64,000 nucleotides of DNA, from positions 3,410,001 to 3,474,000 of the forward strand of contig NZ_CP125854.1 of assembly GCF_030169785.1 (NCBI RefSeq), read 5' to 3'. Source of the stretch: Bdellovibrio sp. 22V. Its GTDB lineage: Bacteria; Bdellovibrionota; Bdellovibrionia; Bdellovibrionales; Bdellovibrionaceae. A program made the position numbers and the translations under genes. This document shows positions 26,017 through 37,195 of this stretch, piece by piece; within the stretch, counting starts at the first letter, position 1, and every line of letters starts with the position of its first letter. The notes under the pieces were generated by a model. The model saw only the letters and a list, made by a program, of their open reading frames with translations. It was not told the DNA's origin and did no database searches.

Positions 26017-26133
26017 TCTTTAAAAGTAACTGTTATTGAATAACCAATTTTTGATAAACAGTTTGTTGTTAATGCCGCGTATCAATAAAAACTTGTTAAA
26101 GTTTACAATTTTTCCAGTAAAAACATACGCTTT

Positions 26134-26152
26134 CCCTTTTTAAACAAAAGGG
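26134..26152 (+). terminator. weak hairpin in the intergenic region before the surface-protein cluster
   Basis: CCCTTTT (26134-26140) pairs with AAAAGGG (26146-26152) across TAAAC, followed by TCCCTTTT and a run of A. It may end the secA unit. The surrounding 26017-26243 is A+T-rich and should hold the promoter of the downstream cluster; I could not assign clear -35/-10 boxes. Confidence 0.4.
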
Positions 26153-26243
26153 TCCCTTTTAAAAAAATATTCGGCGCTTGCGTTTTGGTAGGTTCGGAAA
26201 TTACCGTCTTGTAAACAAGAAAAATTTAGTTTGCGAGGTCCTA

Positions 26244-28682
26244 ATGGTTCGATTTTTTGCAACGCTGATTATTCTCATAGTCGCAAGTCTTACAACGCAT
26301 GCGGAAGATTTAATAACGTTAAGCTCTGATAAAGCTGGCTATGTTCTTGGAGAAAGAGCATTTTTAAAAGTGAAAATTAACTCTCAGCCGCTCAATCCAG
26401 ACAACGAATATTACTTTCAGTCGACTTTTCAGGATGAAGGGCAAAAAATAGTTATGCTATCTGATACTGAAGCATTCGCAGTATCAAATCCTCTTGATGA
26501 TTTCTCTTCGAAGATTTGGGAAGTCAGTCTTTATATTCAGAATAAAAAGAGGGCTGAGGAGTATAACGCAACTATCGCGTTCTTCAGACAAAAGAATCTC
26601 GAAATCGATGAAAAATTAAATAAGGAAACGTCGCAATCCAATCGAGACATTCTCACACAGCAAAAAATTCGAAACGAACAGATTATTGTTAATAGCCAAG
26701 CTAAGCTGCAAGCAGGGAGAACATTTCTTCAGACAAAAACTTTGATTCTTACTCTAGATACGCTGTCGCCAATTTTAAAAAAATCATTTGTGGATCCAAC
26801 AATCGAAATTACTCCTGATGATCCTTCAAAGGTTTATGATTTAGGTGAAGTTGCTAAGTTCAATGTCGCTATTTCCAATGCCACAACTGACACGGAACTA
26901 ATTGTTAAAGGAGAAGTTCCAACTCATCAGGGAAGAATTCCAATTATACTTACTAAATCGACAGCAGCAAACGGAAGTATTGACTTTACGACTGCAACTT
27001 TGAATACAGGCGATGAAGGACGACGAAAGTTTATCGCGAATGTTAGCTATAGATCTCGTAGTGAGGCCGCATACTATCGCAATATTGTTATTCAATCTGA
27101 AACAAGAAAAGGCGAATACATTATACTTAAAAGTAAAACTCAAGACGAAAGAAAAAAGGCGTACTATGATATGTTAATTGCCGAGCTGGATAGGGCGATC
27201 GTATATAATAACGAAAAGTTACATGCGCTTTTGGTGAAAATTAACGACAACTCAGAGTTGGCATTTCGTGTCCGCGATCCAAATTTGATTATAGGCTTTG
27301 TTCTTGATGTTCCGACTGCGGATTTACAAGAGGGTAGCTCTACTGCGAAATTGAAAATTAAGCTCAATTACGAACCTGACGGGAATATCTTCGTAGATAT
27401 TACTCCAAATCAAACACCTCGTATAGATATAGCGTGGCCTTCCTCATTAATGTTTACTCCAGAGAATTGGAACGAGTATCAGGAGGTCCCTATTGAGGCA
27501 ATTGCTGATGATTATTTTGAGGGAACTCATTCCGGTGAAGTCACTATTTCATCAAGTGGGCCGGACTATGATGGACTCACCGCTGGTCCGTTCTCCTTCA
27601 ATATTCTAGATAAACAATATTCTTATGTGGGCTTGTCGCTGAATTCGACGTCTGCCTGTGCAATTAAAGGCAAAAGACTGGTTTGTTGGGGCGATGGTTT
27701 TGACTACGTCTTAGGAAATGGCTCTCAAAATACATTGTCAGTGCCCACAGTCGTGACGAACTATAATGAAATAACAAAAATCGGAAGCGGTTATCATCAC
27801 CGGTGTTTTATTAATGATGGGGCTGCTTATTGTTGGGGACAAAACGGTAAAGGGCAAATTGGTGTTGGAGGATATGCTTCGCATGTGACAACGCCGACTC
27901 TTGTTCCTGGTTTGGACTCTGGTGTGACTGATATTGCCGGAGGTTCATATCATACGTGCGCGATTAAGTGGGGCACAGTTTACTGTTGGGGTGATAATTC
28001 CACTTATCAAATGGGAAAAGGTGGCTCGGCGACCTACGATACGCCTCAGAGCGTCTCTTTGCCTATTACTCCAGTTATGTTGTCGATCGGTGCTAATAAT
28101 ACCTGCGCAGTCTCGGCCGCGGGGACAGCCTATTGCTGGGGAGAGGGCGTGAGTGGAAGTATGGGAATGGGCAACACGGCCACGTGGATAAATCCAACCC
28201 TATCAACTCATATCACAGGCGTGATTTCGATTACATCAAGTCCTTTAATGAATGTTCGGTGTTTTAATAACGGAACTAGAATGAAGTGTGTTGGTAGTAA
28301 TGGATGGCGACAGATTGGTAATTCAGCCGCCACTGCAAATATTTACACTGTACCCCAAGAAGTTGAAATACCTAGCGCTCCTTCGAGCATGGCATCTTCA
28401 GGATTTGCTCATGTCTGTGGGGTCTTCAACGGATCTGCCTACTGTTGGGGGAGCGTCGGTTTGAATATGGGTCTGCTAGGAAATGGTACTGCCGGTGGAA
28501 GTGCTACTCCGCAACTTGTCTCTAACGTTGTTCCTCCTGTTAGTGAAATCTCTGCCAGCACTTATCAGACCTGTTTGACCGATCAAGTTGGTACCAAATG
28601 TTGGGGAAGCTCGACTGTGCTCGGTGACGGCTCCGGTCAATCTTCAAATATCCCAGTCCAAATATTAGAACCGACACTTTAA
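26244..28682 (+). CDS. exported protein: two beta/coiled-coil modules, Calx-beta-like, RCC1-like propeller
   Basis: From ATG 26244 the product has 812 residues with a signal peptide (MVRFFATLIILIVASLTTHA). Residues about 22-180 and 188-350 are two copies of a beta-sandwich module with an inserted helical hairpin (FFRQKNLEIDEKLNKETSQS and similar). A Calx-beta-like domain follows (about 370-460: NWNEYQEVPIEAIADDYFEG, then HSGEVTISSSGPDYDG). Residues from about 465 to the end are seven RCC1-like repeats, each with CxxxxxxxxCWG (for example C472...CWG) and a GxGG/LGNG turn, the number needed for a closed seven-bladed propeller. The Cys pairs may be disulfides. It is the first of five consecutive exported proteins of the same type; function unknown. 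Confidence 0.85.
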   Translation: MVRFFATLIILIVASLTTHAEDLITLSSDKAGYVLGERAFLKVKINSQPLNPDNEYYFQSTFQDEGQKIVMLSDTEAFAVSNPLDDFSSKIWEVSLYIQNKKRAEEYNATIAFFRQKNLEIDEKLNKETSQSNRDILTQQKIRNEQIIVNSQAKLQAGRTFLQTKTLILTLDTLSPILKKSFVDPTIEITPDDPSKVYDLGEVAKFNVAISNATTDTELIVKGEVPTHQGRIPIILTKSTAANGSIDFTTATLNTGDEGRRKFIANVSYRSRSEAAYYRNIVIQSETRKGEYIILKSKTQDERKKAYYDMLIAELDRAIVYNNEKLHALLVKINDNSELAFRVRDPNLIIGFVLDVPTADLQEGSSTAKLKIKLNYEPDGNIFVDITPNQTPRIDIAWPSSLMFTPENWNEYQEVPIEAIADDYFEGTHSGEVTISSSGPDYDGLTAGPFSFNILDKQYSYVGLSLNSTSACAIKGKRLVCWGDGFDYVLGNGSQNTLSVPTVVTNYNEITKIGSGYHHRCFINDGAAYCWGQNGKGQIGVGGYASHVTTPTLVPGLDSGVTDIAGGSYHTCAIKWGTVYCWGDNSTYQMGKGGSATYDTPQSVSLPITPVMLSIGANNTCAVSAAGTAYCWGEGVSGSMGMGNTATWINPTLSTHITGVISITSSPLMNVRCFNNGTRMKCVGSNGWRQIGNSAATANIYTVPQEVEIPSAPSSMASSGFAHVCGVFNGSAYCWGSVGLNMGLLGNGTAGGSATPQLVSNVVPPVSEISASTYQTCLTDQVGTKCWGSSTVLGDGSGQSSNIPVQILEPTL

Positions 28683-28709
28683 TTATTTAGAAAAACGGAG
28701 TTTTTTACC

Positions 28710-29270
28710 ATGAAAAATTTTTTTAGCCTTCTGTTTATATCTCTAATGGTTTTTGGATTACAAGTGCGTGCTGATGGAACTCATTCTTTTGAAAAGATAA
28801 TGAGCACGCTTATAGATTTTGAATTAATGCCCACACAGCCCGGGCCATCTGATCATGTCACTATATATATTAGACCGAATACTACGTTTCAAACTCCGGG
28901 TATGACCGATATTATACTACAGGCAAAACTTGACGGTAATGATTTCTCATTGGTACGCCCTTTGAACGACGTTTGGATTTTTGCTTCGTTGCCATTTGAG
29001 GTGGCTGGGAATCATATTCTCGAAGTGAGTTATTACTTGGAAGATAAGCCTCAAGCAGATGCTCTAAGAGCGGCCATAGGGGTTTTAGATACGGAAATTA
29101 GTAAACTTCAGACTGATCTTCTTCTGGAAGAAGATGATGACATGAAAGTTGTTATACAGACGGCAATTGACGACAAAACTGCAGAGAGAATCGCTGCAGT
29201 CACAACTCTAGAAAATCTTAAAACTTTTGTCGGATCGGAAACTTTCACCTTTTCCGTGGCATCGAATTAA
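28710..29270 (+). CDS. exported protein: single beta/helical-hairpin module
   Basis: The 186-residue protein begins MKNFFSLLFISLMVFGLQVR, a signal peptide, at ATG 28710, 27 bases after the previous stop. It consists of one module of the cluster type: LIDFELMPTQPGPSDHVTIY strand region, ILEVSYYLEDKPQADALRAA leading into a charged helical hairpin (IGVLDTEISKLQTDLLLEED), and a closing strand FVGSETFTFSVA. The same ending TKTLILTL / GQETLSFVV appears in the neighbouring paralogues. It matches no family I know. The 3' end is ten bases before the GTG of the next gene. Confidence 0.8.
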   Translation: MKNFFSLLFISLMVFGLQVRADGTHSFEKIMSTLIDFELMPTQPGPSDHVTIYIRPNTTFQTPGMTDIILQAKLDGNDFSLVRPLNDVWIFASLPFEVAGNHILEVSYYLEDKPQADALRAAIGVLDTEISKLQTDLLLEEDDDMKVVIQTAIDDKTAERIAAVTTLENLKTFVGSETFTFSVASN

Positions 29271-29280
29271 TGGAGGAATA

Positions 29281-30330
29281 GTGAAAAAAATTAGCATTAT
29301 TCTGGTATCCTATTTGTTGGTCTTCTTTAATCATGCAGCGTTCGGAGCGCCTCAGATTCTGACTTTAGAATCTGATAACAGTTCTTATGGAATAGGACAA
29401 AGGGCGCTCTTAAGAGCTAAAATTAATGTAAAACCCAATAAGCCAAATCAAGAGGTCATATTAGTATCAACTTTGGATGGAAATCCCTTGGAGGTGTTAA
29501 GTTTTTCATCTCGATATGGATACAGCCTTACCGCGCAATTATCGACGGTGGGTATGTCTAACTGGACAGTTCGGGCATATGTGCAAGATAAAAACAAAGC
29601 TTTAGAATATGAAAAAATCATTCTTTATTATCAAAAAGAGAATATCGATATCGAAGACGCTCTCGCTAAAGAAACAGATCATGAAATCAGGAATTATCTC
29701 ACAACGACAAAAATAAGAAATCTTGCAATTATCAACAACACTAAAGCGAGAATTTCAGAAAATAGAATCTTTCTGGGACAAGAGACTCTATCTTTTGTAG
29801 TAAGTTTTGTTGTTGGCCAAGCATTAGGGTTAAACCCATATGCACGAATTGAATCTGACCGCGAATCGCAAATCTATAATGTGGGTGAACGAGCAAACTT
29901 CTTTGCAGAACTGCTCACAGATATTACAAGTGCAGAGGGCTATCACGAAATTTATATGGATGGGAAGATCGAAAGCAGCGGAAGCATGCCTGAGCTTGTA
30001 GTTAAAATGAAGCGTATATCCGAAAAGACATTTTCATTTCAGAGTCCTATCTTTACCAGTGCTGACTTGGGAACCAGAAGATTTGTGGTCACGGTGAAAA
30101 CGCGACCTAAAAAACAAGCGGACTCAATCCGTGAAGCAATTCGATCTGTAAGAGATTTGAAATTACAGTATCAGAGTGCTCAAAATCAATCGTTTGATCC
30201 AATGGATAAAATCTACTACCAAAATAGAATCAATATGCTTCAAGTATATGAAACGAACTTGCCTAGTCATCTCAATGAAATTTTGACTACATTTATTTCA
30301 AATTTGGGCCTCCGTTTTGATGTTCAATAA
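29281..30330 (+). CDS. exported protein: two beta/helical-hairpin modules
   Basis: I chose GTG 29281, behind a TGGAGGAATA site; the longer frame to 29227 would overlap the previous gene. The 349-residue product has a signal peptide (MKKISIILVSYLLVFFNHAA). Its first module begins PQILTLESDNSSYGIGQRAL and closes GQETLSFVVSFVV. The second begins RIESDRESQIYNVGERANFF and includes ADSIREAIRSVRDLKLQYQS. Both are close in plan to the two modules of the 26244 protein ('ITLSSDKAGYVLGERAFLKV'), with the same Y-x-x-G-E/Q-R-A signature. It lacks a propeller or enzymatic domain. Probably a structural partner of its neighbours. Confidence 0.82.
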   Translation: MKKISIILVSYLLVFFNHAAFGAPQILTLESDNSSYGIGQRALLRAKINVKPNKPNQEVILVSTLDGNPLEVLSFSSRYGYSLTAQLSTVGMSNWTVRAYVQDKNKALEYEKIILYYQKENIDIEDALAKETDHEIRNYLTTTKIRNLAIINNTKARISENRIFLGQETLSFVVSFVVGQALGLNPYARIESDRESQIYNVGERANFFAELLTDITSAEGYHEIYMDGKIESSGSMPELVVKMKRISEKTFSFQSPIFTSADLGTRRFVVTVKTRPKKQADSIREAIRSVRDLKLQYQSAQNQSFDPMDKIYYQNRINMLQVYETNLPSHLNEILTTFISNLGLRFDVQ

Positions 30331-30344
30331 GAACGGGAGAAACA

Positions 30345-33300
30345 ATGTTACTGAAAAATAAGTTTTCAATTGGCACACGCTCCATGATCCTTTTCGCTGC
30401 TATAATTGCATTGTCTGGTGGATTTGCTTTTGCCAAGAAGGGGTTTTTTTCTTTTCTAGATAAATATGTTGCTATTTCCCTCGATCGTTCCGACGGCGCA
30501 TATTTAGTTGATGAAAATGCAATTATTAAAGTGGAAGCAAAAAAGAAACCAGTTAATTCTAATCTTAAACTTGTTGTTGAAGCTTATAAAATTATCGGTT
30601 CGGATAAAGTAAGTCTTAAGCCAAGTGTAGATCAAGGTATTTATCTTGCTCAGTTTTCCTCTAAGGTAGATGGTGCTGAAGCTATAACGGTGGAAGTTTT
30701 CATTGAGAATGAAAAGTTGCGAAATGACCTCTCTAAAAGAATTGCGGAGACAGAAAAATTAATTGCTGATTTGAATGGAGCTATCGCAGTAAATCCTACG
30801 CCTGACAAAATTAAGAGGCGCGATGATTTAGAAGCTATTCTTCCCTTACTGCGTGATCAGTATAATGATACTAGAAAACTAGTACAAACTGAAGTTGTAA
30901 ACTACGTAACGATTCCTAATGATACTGAGCTCTCAATTTTTACTCCTATTGCCGATGCAAAAATTGTGAGTGGATCCATTGAAGTAAAGGGCATATTTAC
31001 CACGACGGTGCCTGGAGTAAAGTTATATGTCGATTCCCAGGAAGTTCTCGGTGCAAAGTCCGGTCAGGAATTCTTACATACGTTCAACGAAGAGGGTATA
31101 GGAAAATTGCAGACGCGTATCGAGGTAAAAAGGGGAAATTTTCTATTAAAACGGGTCGCAGTTCCGTATTTAGTTATTCCTGACGGAGGAAAAAATTTAG
31201 ATGTTGGTTCTTCTGGTGGAACTGTTGAGATGACTGATCCGTCAAGTCCAATTGTTGGAGCAAAGGTTGTATTGCCACCAAATGCAATGCCCGAAAATAA
31301 CGAGATCATTATTGCTGAGTCTCCTCATGGGATGATGGTACCCGCCGGCAATGTTGTTATCAGCAAGGATTATATTTTTTATCCTTATTTTATGCACTTT
31401 AATGAAGATGTGACGGTGACCATTCCAATTGATGCTTCAAAAATTCCAGCAGGAAGATCTTACGCTGAAGCTAAGGTGCTGGCCCGAATTAACGGTGCAT
31501 GGGTGGAGCTACCTGTAGACAGTTCTACTTCGGGATTTGTAACGTTTAAAACGAGAGATTTCGAATACGACTCTCTTCAAATAGTTATCCCGATGCCTTT
31601 GAAGTCAGGGGAATTGCGTATCATTAGTAATGTCGCAGGCGCGACGATTTATGTGGACGGGCTGAGTGAAGGATTTCAAACCCCTTGGACTCTATCTGGA
31701 ATGACAAACGAACAGCATGATATTAAAATATATGCTCCCGGTTATAATGAGTTTTTTCAAAAAATTGATTATAACGGTCCATCGACCTTAAATGTCCAAT
31801 TGACGCCGTTAAGAAAAGTCGGAATTCCAAAAATCGAAACCGCAACAGTGTCTGACGGTATGACCGTTTCCAATTCCTTAATACAGATTCCAGGTAATAT
31901 TAGTTTAAATGGAGTACCTTCAAATGATGGATTTTTAGTTGTTTCAATGAATGGAAGTGATTCGCTTCAGACAGTTTTGCCAAATGGAGCATTTGCGGCT
32001 GTAGTTCCACTATTTGAAGGAGAAAACATTGTAGAACTAAGGTATACCGTCAATGGAATAACTTCTATTAAAGGTCCTTTTCGTATTATTCGTAACGCTC
32101 AAAGTACCTTCGATCACTTGGCTCAGTATCCGTTTGCATATGAAGTAGATTTAAAAAGCAAAGAGACTAGAATAGCAAAACTTGGTCTGTTAGAAAGTTT
32201 TAAAGTTCCTAAATCGGATATATTATTCTCCGAGAATACGAGAAATCAAGAAATTCGCGTCGTAATGTCATGGACTAAATCAGACACTGATGTTGACATG
32301 CATATTTATGATCCTTTTGGGGGCCATGCTTGGTATGGAGATTTGGGAGGAGTAGCTGGAGGTGTTCTTGACCATGATGATACTGACGGCTTTGGACCAG
32401 AGACTTTTGTTTTACCCAAACCTCGCCCCGGAGTTTATCGAGTGCGAGCACAGTACTACTCGGATCATGGGAATGGTTCCACGACCGTTCAGTTCAGAAT
32501 CTATTTAGGTGGGAAACTACTTGCAACTTTATCAAGAGGAATGTCATCCGGTGGATCTTGGGATGCTTATGAAATCGAAATCACAGATGAAATTGCAATT
32601 AAGGACGTAATTTCTATATCTGGTAGATCGACAGAAGCGAGGAGGGTTGAATGTAACAATCGGACGGATGGTATCTGTATTAATGGCAAATTTACTACTC
32701 ACGCTGGCGAAAATATTCTTTTACCCAAAGTAGAAGTTGATGATTCTGTTCCCGATGCCGATATTTCGTTTGTAGTTTCTGAATTGAGTTACGGCACCTC
32801 AATTCCTGTCTCTTCGAGAGGGAGAAATGCGAGAGTTAGTCTTCCTATGAGACAGGAGGCTGGATTCGCTAGTATTGGTAAGCCTCTTCTATATAAGATT
32901 GTAGCTAAGACTTCATCGTCAGAGTCTCCGCCCTTCTACGTAGTCCAAGACACTAGATCTCAGATTCGACAGGAGTATATTGATTTGAGAGAAAAAACAA
33001 AAGGTGCCCCGGAAGATGAGCGTTTTGAGGTTGCAGTGCCAACGTACAGTGAAATTAACGATGGAACAAATTTCCCGGGTCCAAACTTTTATACATATTC
33101 TGATTTTTTAAAAAATACTATATTTGGGAATTATGGATTAGTTTTAAATTCACGACAGTATGCTAATGAAGTAAACCTTGCTTTTAGAAATAAGTATAAC
33201 CCAGCTGGCCGGATTATACTGACATCTGGCTGGAGAAATCCTAGGAAAAACTATTCGACTCCAAGACGAGCATTAAACAGTGGGCATCAAACCGGAAACT

Positions 33301-33506
33301 CTATCGATCTCGTTCCTCCAAAGTCAGATTTGCCGAAGGTTTACGGGCGACATCTGGGAGTAATAAATCTTATGAAAGATTTATGTGATGTCTCATTTGC
33401 TGGAATTCGCGATAATGTACTAGTAATGGTGCATGGTGGAGATCATGTGCATATTCAGAGAAACTCCGGAAAGAAGGTTTCTTTATGCTATAGGCACAAG
33501 ATATAA
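30345..33506 (+). CDS. large exported multidomain protein with C-terminal LAS-type peptidase
   Basis: The 1053-residue protein starts at ATG 30345 after GGGAGAAACA. After the signal peptide (to about 34) comes a cluster-type module with helical insert (about 40-195), an Ig-like domain, a ZU5-like domain (about 283-425: GGTVEM, KVVLPPNAMPENNEIIIAES), a PEGA domain (about 421-490: GATIYVDGLSEGFQTPWTLS), another Ig-like domain, a DUF2135/YfaP-like domain (about 635-745: VVMSWTKSDTDVDMHIYDPF) and a peptidase domain (about 915-1045). The last has SGWRNPRKN, SGHQTGNSIDL and GDHVHIQ, giving H981, D988 and H1036 as zinc ligands, as in M15/MepA (LAS) enzymes that cut peptide bonds next to D-amino acids in peptidoglycan. 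Likely substrate: cell wall peptide. Confidence 0.85.
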   Translation: MLLKNKFSIGTRSMILFAAIIALSGGFAFAKKGFFSFLDKYVAISLDRSDGAYLVDENAIIKVEAKKKPVNSNLKLVVEAYKIIGSDKVSLKPSVDQGIYLAQFSSKVDGAEAITVEVFIENEKLRNDLSKRIAETEKLIADLNGAIAVNPTPDKIKRRDDLEAILPLLRDQYNDTRKLVQTEVVNYVTIPNDTELSIFTPIADAKIVSGSIEVKGIFTTTVPGVKLYVDSQEVLGAKSGQEFLHTFNEEGIGKLQTRIEVKRGNFLLKRVAVPYLVIPDGGKNLDVGSSGGTVEMTDPSSPIVGAKVVLPPNAMPENNEIIIAESPHGMMVPAGNVVISKDYIFYPYFMHFNEDVTVTIPIDASKIPAGRSYAEAKVLARINGAWVELPVDSSTSGFVTFKTRDFEYDSLQIVIPMPLKSGELRIISNVAGATIYVDGLSEGFQTPWTLSGMTNEQHDIKIYAPGYNEFFQKIDYNGPSTLNVQLTPLRKVGIPKIETATVSDGMTVSNSLIQIPGNISLNGVPSNDGFLVVSMNGSDSLQTVLPNGAFAAVVPLFEGENIVELRYTVNGITSIKGPFRIIRNAQSTFDHLAQYPFAYEVDLKSKETRIAKLGLLESFKVPKSDILFSENTRNQEIRVVMSWTKSDTDVDMHIYDPFGGHAWYGDLGGVAGGVLDHDDTDGFGPETFVLPKPRPGVYRVRAQYYSDHGNGSTTVQFRIYLGGKLLATLSRGMSSGGSWDAYEIEITDEIAIKDVISISGRSTEARRVECNNRTDGICINGKFTTHAGENILLPKVEVDDSVPDADISFVVSELSYGTSIPVSSRGRNARVSLPMRQEAGFASIGKPLLYKIVAKTSSSESPPFYVVQDTRSQIRQEYIDLREKTKGAPEDERFEVAVPTYSEINDGTNFPGPNFYTYSDFLKNTIFGNYGLVLNSRQYANEVNLAFRNKYNPAGRIILTSGWRNPRKNYSTPRRALNSGHQTGNSIDLVPPKSDLPKVYGRHLGVINLMKDLCDVSFAGIRDNVLVMVHGGDHVHIQRNSGKKVSLCYRHKI

Positions 33507-33520
33507 AATTGGAGCTTTTG

Positions 33521-34009
33521 ATGACGAAAGTACTTATTTGTTTATTTTGTCTATGTTTATCGATGCCTTCTGCTGCAAAAAATAACGAAGTCCGCAAAGA
33601 GAACGTGAAAGATGATTTTGATGTTCAGTATGTTTCAAGGGCTAAGGCTGCTACTCCGTCTGATGAATACGAAGAGATGGGGTGTTCATGTGCGGTAAAA
33701 AAAGAAGGAAAGAGAATTATTACGACAAATCTCACGCTTGAACATGGCGATGCGTATGTACAGATCAATAATAAAAGATATCGTCTCAAGTTTATAAGTA
33801 GTAAGGAAGCCGGAAAGAACAGATTCATTTCCAAATATTCAAACGGAAAGTACGATTTAAATCTGACTTGTAACACTAAAAAAGTAACGTATCCCCCGCC
33901 GTGCGAAGAAAGTGGCTGCACCGGAATTGACTACTTTTGTGATGCAGAATTTTCAAATGGAAAACAGAAAAGCACTTTTTCAGGTTTAAAGGGAGAGTGT
34001 GGTTGCTAA
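33521..34009 (+). CDS. small exported cysteine-rich protein
   Basis: From ATG 33521, 12 bases after a GGAG site, the product has 162 residues with a signal peptide (MTKVLICLFCLCLSMPSAAK). The body has about eight cysteines, several as pairs: MGCSCAVKK, LTCNTKK, PPPCEESGCTGIDYFC, and a final GECGC. These look like an extracellular, disulfide-stabilised domain. No family is recognised. It is the last gene of the unusual cluster, 14 bases after the peptidase gene, and shares its A+T-rich composition. It could be an inhibitor, chaperone or binding partner of the peptidase; there is no evidence for any of these. Confidence 0.78.
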   Translation: MTKVLICLFCLCLSMPSAAKNNEVRKENVKDDFDVQYVSRAKAATPSDEYEEMGCSCAVKKEGKRIITTNLTLEHGDAYVQINNKRYRLKFISSKEAGKNRFISKYSNGKYDLNLTCNTKKVTYPPPCEESGCTGIDYFCDAEFSNGKQKSTFSGLKGECGC

Positions 34010-34095
34010 TATGTTTACAACCAGGGTATCAACTAGTTGACCCCGCAGTCATAAGAAAGTAATATATTCGTATTACCCAAGAAATAGGAGGGCTG

Positions 34096-34146
34096 ATGAT
34101 TGTAAAATTCTTTAATCCAAACCATGGCTCTCTTGGTCGTTCTTAA
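34096..34146 (+). CDS. possible 16-residue peptide with strong ribosome site
   Basis: ATAGGAGGGCTG precedes ATG 34096, and the frame encodes MIVKFFNPNHGSLGRS before TAA at 34144-34146. The ribosome site is as good as any in the window, yet the frame is only 17 codons. It could be a leader peptide for rsgA, the remains of a lost gene, or chance. It lies 81 bases before rsgA. Confidence 0.3.
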   Translation: MIVKFFNPNHGSLGRS

Positions 34147-34193
34147 TTTCTATTTTTGAATTAATAATTTAAATCCACGAGAGCTCCGCTTTT

Positions 34194-34213
34194 ATTTTTT
34201 AAATTTAAAAAAT
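34194..34213 (+). repeat. 20-bp A/T palindrome before rsgA
   Basis: ATTTTTTAAATTTAAAAAAT is a perfect palindrome ending three bases before the GGAG of rsgA. An all-A/T palindrome can form by chance in A+T-rich DNA, but its position between promoter and start makes a regulatory or melting role possible. Confidence 0.4.
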
Positions 34214-34226
34214 TTGGAGTTATTGC

Positions 34227-35315
34227 GTGAATTTATATTCAAAGCTCATCCCTTTGGGGTGGGACGCATTTTTTGAACAACAATTAGAATCATCCACTGA
34301 GCATTGGCAACTGGGCCGAGTTATCGGGCAAGAGCGAGATTTGTACCGCGTGGCTTTCGCGGAAGATGACGTCGTGTGGGCGCAGCTTTCGGGTCGCTTT
34401 CGTCACGACAATGAGCTTTCGGCCGGAGCATTTCCGGCCGTGGGTGATTGGGTGGCGTGTAAGAACGAAGAAAATCAAGACAGAGCCTTGATTCAAAAAG
34501 TTCTTGAACGTCGTTCGTGCTTTTATCGGAAAGACCCTCAAGAAGGTGTGCAAGTCGTTGCCGCGAACATGGATGTTGTATTTATCGTGACCTCCATGAA
34601 TCGCGATATGAACTTGAAACGCTTGGATCGCTATTTGAGCATGGCCTGGGACAGCGGCGCTTCACCGGTTTTGGTTCTAAGCAAAATGGATCTTGCTGAA
34701 GATCCTGCCGCTTTTATTCAAGAGCTGGAAGAAACTTATATCGGCGTCCCGATTCATGGAGTGAGCGTTCTTGAGCCCGACACTTGTGAAGTGCTTAAGA
34801 ACTATTTGCGTCCAGGAAAAACGGTCGTGCTTATGGGATCCTCCGGAGTCGGGAAATCCACTTTGACGAATTTCTTTTTAGGAGAAAATACGATCAAAAC
34901 ACAAAACGCGCGAGAAGACGACGATCGCGGGCGGCACACAACGACCTCTCGATTCTTATATCAGTTGCGTGAAGGTGCTTTGCTTATGGATACGCCGGGA
35001 ATGAGGCAGCTTGCTCTCGTCGACCAAGAAGAGGGTTTGCACGATCTCTTTGAAGACATCATTGCGATCGGTTCGACTTGCCGGTTCCGCGATTGCGCTC
35101 ATCAGGGTGAACCTGGATGTTCTATTCGGGCCGCCCTGGAAGATGGTTCCTTGCCGGAAGACAGATGGGAAAGTTATCTGAAACTTCAAAAGGAAGTCGC
35201 CTACCAGGAAGCTCGAGGAGATCGCCAAAAGCAGGCGGAGGATCGAAAAAAATGGAAAAAGATTTCTAAGGATCTTCGTGTGCGAATCAAACAGAAAGGC
35301 CGGGGGGAGATTTAA
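34227..35315 (+). CDS. rsgA: ribosome small-subunit GTPase RsgA
   Basis: RsgA helps late maturation of the 30S subunit by GTP-dependent release of RbfA. The 362-residue protein shows the circular permutation of the family: OB-fold first, then G4 as LSKMDL (152-155, with Ser in place of the usual Asn), G1 as GSSGVGKST (204-212), G3 as DTPG (255-258), and the C-terminal zinc knuckle with C285, C290, H292 and C298. The G2-like region REDDDRGRHTTTSR is normal. The start is GTG 34227 behind TTTGGAGT. It follows the unusual cluster but is a core housekeeping gene with normal composition. The stop lies inside a small GC hairpin. Confidence 0.96.
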   Translation: MNLYSKLIPLGWDAFFEQQLESSTEHWQLGRVIGQERDLYRVAFAEDDVVWAQLSGRFRHDNELSAGAFPAVGDWVACKNEENQDRALIQKVLERRSCFYRKDPQEGVQVVAANMDVVFIVTSMNRDMNLKRLDRYLSMAWDSGASPVLVLSKMDLAEDPAAFIQELEETYIGVPIHGVSVLEPDTCEVLKNYLRPGKTVVLMGSSGVGKSTLTNFFLGENTIKTQNAREDDDRGRHTTTSRFLYQLREGALLMDTPGMRQLALVDQEEGLHDLFEDIIAIGSTCRFRDCAHQGEPGCSIRAALEDGSLPEDRWESYLKLQKEVAYQEARGDRQKQAEDRKKWKKISKDLRVRIKQKGRGEI

Positions 35316-36556: not shown

Positions 36557-37195
36557 TTAGTACTCGCATTTAATTGTTTCGCGGTCGGCAGCCGTTAATA
36601 CGTCTCGTTTCAAAGCCCCATTGAGAACAGCCCACATCACGCTGGGAACGGTACTTCGGTGTTTTAATCCTAAAACGTGTCCCAACTCGTGAATCAGCAG
36701 ACTTTCAAGGTGGACGTCTTTATAGGATTGATATTCGTCGATAAAAAAATTGAAGTATTTATTGTCGATGGCAACGTCAGCTTCATAAAGCTCGTTCGCG
36801 CGCCAATAAAGATTCGTGAGCCCTTGCATGTTCTTCTGCGCTTCAGGCCATTCCTGTAACCAGTGAACTGTGTTCACAGAGTCTCGCTTTGTTTCGTCCG
36901 TCAAAGTCTTTTCAGAGCGTACGAAGTTAAAGAGCGTCATGCCAGCAGCATCATTCCAGTGCGAGGCCGCTTTGCGAAGAACCTCTTCGTATTCAGTAGG
37001 AAAGCTTTTGTGGAGTTCGAGAGTCACAGGAATATTCTTTTTCCATGACACTCTTTGCCCGTAGGCGTTTTGCACAAATCCACAATCTGTTTCAGCGGCA
37101 CTTGCGAGATTGTCGGCGTCACCGGGCCCCAATGTAATGCCGTTTTGGCATGCGCATAAAGCCAACAATGTAATGAACAGAAAGCATTTGTACAT
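36557..37195 (-). CDS. matrixin-like metalloprotease lipoprotein
   Basis: The 212-residue protein has a lipoprotein signal (MYKCFLFITLLALCAC, Cys16). The zinc site is complete: HELGHVLGLKH with H169, E170, H173 and H179, and the Met-turn VPSVMWAV with M187, as in M10A (matrixin) and related metzincins. The catalytic domain is compact (about 50-205), with no visible prodomain cysteine switch and no hemopexin repeats. It would cut proteins at the cell envelope or outside. The start has a GAGAGAC ribosome site. The next gene begins one base after its stop. Matrixin-like lipoproteins of this kind are known from several predatory and gliding bacteria. Confidence 0.88.
   Translation of the reverse strand: MYKCFLFITLLALCACQNGITLGPGDADNLASAAETDCGFVQNAYGQRVSWKKNIPVTLELHKSFPTEYEEVLRKAASHWNDAAGMTLFNFVRSEKTLTDETKRDSVNTVHWLQEWPEAQKNMQGLTNLYWRANELYEADVAIDNKYFNFFIDEYQSYKDVHLESLLIHELGHVLGLKHRSTVPSVMWAVLNGALKRDVLTAADRETIKCEY

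Follow-up and report, generated by a model that had tools for sequence, protein, structure and literature searches.

The window analysed here, a stretch of 64,000 nucleotides (bases 3410001-3474000) from the 3.60 Mb, single-contig genome of Bdellovibrio sp. 22V, contains a row of five plus-strand genes (g1 to g5, 26244-34009) in which four consecutive exported proteins are built on one undescribed domain of about 155 residues. In relatives this module is inherited together with a set of partner genes, and every cluster found outside the window adjoins an Rhs/YD-shell gene. We give an even chance to the reading that g1-g5 are a horizontally acquired cassette of the polymorphic-toxin kind that encodes a Sec-exported effector of several subunits, with the roles proposed below.

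A shared module in an inserted row of exported genes

The row and its parts are as follows (all on the plus strand unless stated; aa, amino acids).
26244-28682: g1, signal sequence, two modules, a further beta domain and an RCC1 beta-propeller, 812 aa
26292-26774: g1 module copy 1, class M1 (profile comparison, module tree)
26793-27275: g1 module copy 2, class M2 (profile comparison, module tree)
27606-28679: g1 RCC1-type beta-propeller (Pfam RCC1 2.8e-30, WD40_RLD 6.7e-35)
28710-29270: g2, signal sequence and one module, class G2, 186 aa
29281-30330: g3, signal sequence and two modules, nothing else, 349 aa; GTG start after GGAGG
29338-29814: g3 module copy 1, class M1 (profile comparison, AlphaFold2, tree)
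29833-30327: g3 module copy 2, class M2 (profile comparison, AlphaFold2, tree)
30345-33506: g4, signal sequence, N4 module, ZU5-like, PEGA and DUF2135-like parts and a C-terminal M15-type peptidase region, 1053 aa
30435-30944: g4 N-terminal module, class N4 (profile comparison, tree)
31608-31805: g4 PEGA domain (Pfam 4.2e-12)
32898-33503: g4 C-terminal peptidase region (motifs conserved in genome G016; profile link to a protein of genome G093)
about 33279-33308 and about 33444-33452: candidate zinc ligands in g4, SxHxxGxxxD and HxH respectively
33521-34009: g5, 162 aa, a small Cys-rich exported protein that may confer immunity, 14 bases after g4
26017-34085: inserted AT-rich block, approximate extent, no strand assigned (flanks match the cluster-free locus of genome G020)

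An earlier note on this DNA, made from the letters alone, had claimed that four consecutive proteins repeat one plan, two of them twice. To compare the six copies, they and their relatives were sorted into four classes, M1 and M2 (from the double-module proteins), G2 (g2-type) and N4 (g4-type), and profiles of these classes were compared over about 155 columns. The probabilities obtained were 98.7% for M1-M2 (E 3e-15), 99.5% for M1-G2 (3e-22), 92.5% for M1-N4 (6e-8), 98.5% for M2-G2, 81% for M2-N4 and 69% for G2-N4, against approximately 0% for control stretches (RCC1, PKD, DUF2135) from the same proteins; a G2-IPT control pair, inflated by sequence overlap of both stretches, was disregarded. 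The claim was thus borne out: g1 and g3 contain two copies of the module each, g2 and g4 a single one. An AlphaFold2 model of g3, built from 14 homologues, reached a predicted local distance difference test score (pLDDT) of 88.9 and consists of two immunoglobulin (Ig)-like beta-sandwiches, in each of which a pair of 27-residue helices separates the last two strands. In the first module, strands are followed by helices 85-111 and 115-141 and by a closing strand (144-156), a plan that repeats in the second half and matches the strands, hairpin and closing strand described beforehand. The opening motif that the note had given to all four proteins, Y-x-x-G-E/Q-R-A, is absent from g2.

Neither g2 nor g3 matched any Pfam, NCBIfam, PHROGs or PADLOC model, and a Foldseek search of the module against the PDB returned generic tandem Ig-like matches only, with a query template modelling (TM) score of at most 0.25 among the top 50. 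The shared module is an undescribed domain family, with neither a curated model nor a solved structure of the same whole, and the statement that no described system has this content therefore holds for the module. The propeller announced for one of the proteins is also there, the RCC1 repeats of g1 passing the Pfam cut-off (105 bits versus 21.7). Most genomes of the genus have a strongly expanded complement of RCC1-repeat proteins, with up to 51 matching stretches in one of them.

By eye, an evident Sec-type signal sequence stands at the start of each of the five proteins, including the Cys-rich g5 that closes the row. The intergenic gaps measure 27, 10, 14 and 14 bases, in agreement with the close spacing noted before, and g1-g5 may form one transcript; this suggestion comes from the spacing by itself, because promoter and terminator scans performed no better than shuffles.

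All five genes are richer in A+T than their surroundings, as the note had seen: their GC content (0.374-0.420) and that of their third codon positions (GC3, 0.306-0.358) fall, gene by gene, under those of all 44 other open reading frames (ORFs) of at least 150 aa in the window (GC 0.460, standard deviation 0.018; GC3 0.480, standard deviation 0.047). In most relatives the flanking upstream gene, of 191 aa, is directly followed by a bamE-like gene, without the cluster. In G020, 411 bases separate the 191-aa gene from rsgA, whose leader matches the window from about 34085 onwards; since this cluster-free locus matches the flanks outside the row, the insert was placed at about 26017-34085. Its AT-rich composition and its position between genes that adjoin in relatives support horizontal acquisition of the block, as had been suspected. 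A clean junction or a mobility gene was not found at the insert. A phage origin was rejected, as the PHROGs matches comprised RCC1 and weak unknowns only, and so was a defence system, with zero PADLOC matches.

Two features beside the insertion site deserve mention. The rsgA leader (window 34085-34230), about 86% conserved with G020, encodes a short ORF (MIVKFFNPNHGSLGRS) and has GCUCUC/GAGAGC stretches, complementary to each other and with T-rich sequence behind them, that might act as an attenuator; its folding was not significant in the window (z -0.9) but more significant in G020 (z -2.3). Further downstream, on the minus strand (36557-37195), lies a gene for a small exported matrixin-like zinc peptidase (Pfam Peptidase_M10 1.6e-9), which together with its neighbour is conserved beside the insertion site in relatives.

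Co-inheritance of the module genes and linkage to Rhs loci

The module was present in 7 of the 24 genomes of the genus, its own included, making up eight clusters in total. No module gene was scattered singly within the genus; the folds proved not to be unrelated, nor were the genes found one by one with normal composition, the outcomes that would have spoken against the note. Outside the genus there was one module-like fragment only, flanked by insertion sequences (IS) and located in another genus of the same family; a module match in genome G065 was discarded as a coiled-coil artefact. At that outside locus (L143 7061-10529, genome G049), exported proteins of about 210 aa, related to one another and arranged in tandem, stand beside the IS-like element and the fragment.

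Each of the eight clusters encodes at least one G2-type (single-module) and at least one M1-M2-type (double-module) protein, the G2-type gene directly preceding the M1-M2-type gene in all of them. In six clusters the G2 module heads a protein of 745-768 aa, and the one that was scanned bears IPT and PKD domains. The closest cluster, that of G005, has the order g1, g1, g2, g3, an 832-aa protein starting with an N4 module, Rhs and a 169-aa ORF. Window g1 is 30-31% identical, over its full length, to the two consecutive G005 genes, and g2 is 35% identical to its positional counterpart. Comparison of both orders indicates that g4 and g5 occupy the place of the N4 protein, the Rhs gene and the small ORF.

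In a tree of 38 modules, each class fell on one side of a branch, with support of 97/93 for M2, 100/98 for G2 and 97/89 for N4, the M1 group being poorly supported (55/42). The same pairings of clusters recurred in each module class (window-G005, G002-G015 and G020-G008), which indicates that the set was inherited together; such congruence would be expected of interacting parts that are inherited as a set. The first modules (M1) of g1 (26292-26774) and g3 (29338-29814) pair together (99/94), whereas those of class M2 in both proteins fall with their G005 counterparts, a pattern that might reflect gene conversion of M1 within the cluster.

All 7 clusters outside the window adjoin an Rhs/YD-shell gene, with 0.7-7.6 kb between the Rhs core and the listed module gene. 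As each genome has 1-4 Rhs loci, covering 0.5-1.6% of the genome at that radius, the crude chance product for this proximity is 3.5e-15, a figure that makes the case look stronger than it is because some clusters share ancestry. The link between Rhs and module genes is not due to chance. The Rhs gene is co-directional with the cluster in 6 of the 7 cases and divergent in one of the two G002 clusters, and the pairings G002-G015 and G002-G020 are found again in the tree of Rhs. The Rhs tips differ between loci of relatives, being YkuD-like in G008 and including an HExxH-like stretch in G001. Modules mark one subset of the Rhs loci in the genus.

Several Rhs loci showed features of their own. In G008 (L018 11-1161), an Rhs core with a YkuD-like tip (weak, E 0.006) is followed by a 184-aa ORF with a signal sequence, a candidate periplasmic toxin-immunity pair; a very similar tip occurs in L088. 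An IS-like transposase pair interrupts the tip region of the Rhs gene beside a module cluster of G002 (L015 16009-17742). In the genome of the window itself, a short ORF of 254 aa with an Rhs core and a detached tip precedes a small ORF (L067 8201-8965), an arrangement that resembles an orphan Rhs tip cassette. Rhs loci of another type, conserved across the genus and without modules, consist of a pilin-like gene, a small gene and Rhs, near dnaJ and in several cases clp genes (L068, own genome 2704000-2723999; L072, L082, L087, L089 and L090). They resemble bd1290-bd1292, the pilin-Rhs arrangement of Bdellovibrio bacteriovorus (PMC3818213).

A proposed effector cassette and its alternatives

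Within the last 200 residues of g4, the motifs SxHxxGxxxD and HxH are present, and the tip is conserved, motifs included, in its single full homologue, encoded in G016. Against Pfam Peptidase_M15_3, g4 scored 12.8 bits (E 0.14), under the curated cut-off of 23.2. A profile made from the g4 and G016 tips matched a G093 protein at E 2.1e-5, and this bridging protein is clearly a Peptidase_M15_3 (3e-13); a PDB sequence search with the tip, as single sequence or profile, gave no match. The cell-wall peptidase that the earlier note had recognised thus stands as far as motifs and bridging homologue are concerned, but g4's own Pfam match stays below threshold; we regard the tip as likely to be an M15-type peptidoglycan peptidase. 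The G016 homologue shares residues 196-1048 with g4 (38% identity), has another N-terminus without the module and is not accompanied by g1-g3 partners. As the effector part thus sits on a different N-terminus in G016, the module appears to be a swappable attachment, which would have been joined to, or removed from, an independent effector. An autopeptidase role considered for the ZU5-like part of g4 was dropped, the HF residues not being conserved in the G016 homologue. Directly downstream of the g4 tip, g5 carries a signal sequence and is an orphan, features that, with its position, make it a candidate immunity protein.

In the cassette that we propose, the Ig/helical-hairpin module would be the docking part that joins the subunits, with g2, which has a single module, and g3, which is made of two modules only, as structural subunits. 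The RCC1 propeller of g1 would probably recognise a surface, as the receptor-binding part, and g4 would carry the active tip, g5 protecting the owner. In relatives the same assembly would accompany an Rhs/YD-shell protein with a variable toxin-like tip, Rhs being the cargo, a role that in the window would have passed to g4. The complex might be displayed on the cell, or released from it, towards prey or rivals; the linkage to Rhs at all seven other loci lends support to the earlier idea of an extracellular or prey-directed assembly, which is still a guess.

Several results weigh against this proposal. The window has no Rhs gene, since none of the genome's Rhs-core matches lies inside it and a six-frame search showed no core motifs, which makes its copy an outlier among its kind; because of this absence, we do not assign the window itself to the Rhs class. 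None of the other Rhs loci that were fetched from the genus carries a module gene, so that Rhs does not need the modules. The AlphaFold2 model of the g4 tip, made from two sequences only, had a pLDDT of 36 and left the peptidase fold unconfirmed. Finally, g5 had no homologue in 100 relatives, its immunity role being that of a candidate only, and no delivery machinery was identified.

The modules might instead build a surface adhesin or matrix complex for attachment to prey or surfaces, where g4 would trim the cell wall for anchoring and the nearness of Rhs would reflect shared acquisition islands of surface proteins. We hold this unlikely, albeit the strongest of the alternatives. The RCC1, Ig-like, IPT/TIG, PKD and PEGA domains are typical of surface proteins, and earlier work connects the Rhs proteins of Bdellovibrio with pili and growth signalling, not with killing (PMC3818213, PMC4267844). 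However, the tight gene order and the co-inheritance with Rhs, co-directional at 6 of 7 loci, fit this explanation poorly, and the Rhs tips resemble polymorphic toxin tips. It is less probable still that the module proteins act as chaperones or escorts in the periplasm, folding, holding and exporting Rhs or g4 while staying outside the delivered complex: module genes are always near a cargo gene in relatives, g2 and g3 consist of modules alone and the helical hairpin could cradle a cargo, but several module proteins bear large extra domains (RCC1, IPT, PKD) not expected in chaperones, and g4 itself carries a module. Least of all do we favour a wall-remodelling complex serving the own cell during growth inside prey (g4 as peptidase, g5 as regulator), which is very improbable since, although M15 peptidases commonly act on their owner's own wall and five exported genes stand in one row, the cluster is patchy, AT-rich, inserted and absent from most of the genus, unlike housekeeping wall genes, and is accompanied by different cargo in relatives.

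How Bdellovibrio-type predators recognise and attack prey, or fight their kin, is partly open, and the role of Rhs there is unsettled. The clusters now provide a defined family of domains, partner proteins that come as a fixed set and a pattern of co-inheritance, which lead to a testable proposal, namely that effectors of the Rhs type cooperate in these predators with an exported complex of module proteins whose cargo is swappable, and the g4 tip and g5 supply a testable pair of peptidase and candidate immunity protein. The genes of the block probably encode a system of several parts by which a toxic protein, cell-wall-cutting or other, is displayed or delivered to prey or rivals. The bolder claim of a new class of multi-subunit Sec-exported toxin-display machine in predatory bacteria, a module-joined surface complex that can carry either Rhs shells or a fused peptidoglycan peptidase as exchangeable cargo and has RCC1 propellers for target receptors, we put forward as a tentative one, with the chances rather against it.

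Comparison with known systems

No such exported module system was found in the literature consulted. The nearest general class is that of the Rhs/YD-repeat polymorphic toxin systems (Zhang et al. 2012, PMC3482391), in which peptidoglycan-directed tips and ZU5 domains are known (PMC3482391). Common to both are an AT-rich patchy island, modular exported proteins with a C-terminal tip, a small ORF downstream and, in relatives, Rhs core proteins beside the same modules. The window differs in that it has no Rhs gene and that tip exchange is not shown for g4, and separate subunits with a common docking-type domain were not found described for that class.

In published work, the Rhs proteins of Bdellovibrio are discussed as regulators of pili or of growth (PMC3818213, PMC4267844). 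The Bd0108/Bd0109 hit locus and the other Bdellovibrio Rhs genes treated there share with the present clusters exported Rhs proteins, a small exported partner and the same (inferred) genus, but the partner of that locus is a disordered protein, and no modules, RCC1 or PEGA proteins have been described with it. The Rhs gene beside a pilin-like gene in the own genome (L068) belongs to the type of that literature and not to the module type.

Among the Foldseek matches was GlgE (PDB 5cgm), whose domains N and S, a beta-sandwich with an associated helix bundle, both take part in dimer contacts (PMC4663749); this is a cytosolic enzyme with a TM-score of just 0.24, a likeness of plan for which homology is not shown. 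In the literature consulted, RCC1 repeats were met only in sequences annotated as RTX toxins (PMC5941755). With peptidase family M15, g4 shares the order of the SxHxxGxxxD and HxH motifs and the profile link through the G093 protein, unlike its members in its own sub-threshold Pfam score. In the Tc (ABC) toxin complexes, a YD shell encloses the tip and works with separate subunits, one of them bearing a propeller. The propeller here is of the RCC1 type and sits on a separate Sec-exported protein, and no TcA-like gene was noticed in the clusters read, but the likeness extends to a YD shell with a tip in relatives, to separate subunits and to one of these subunits being the bearer of a propeller.

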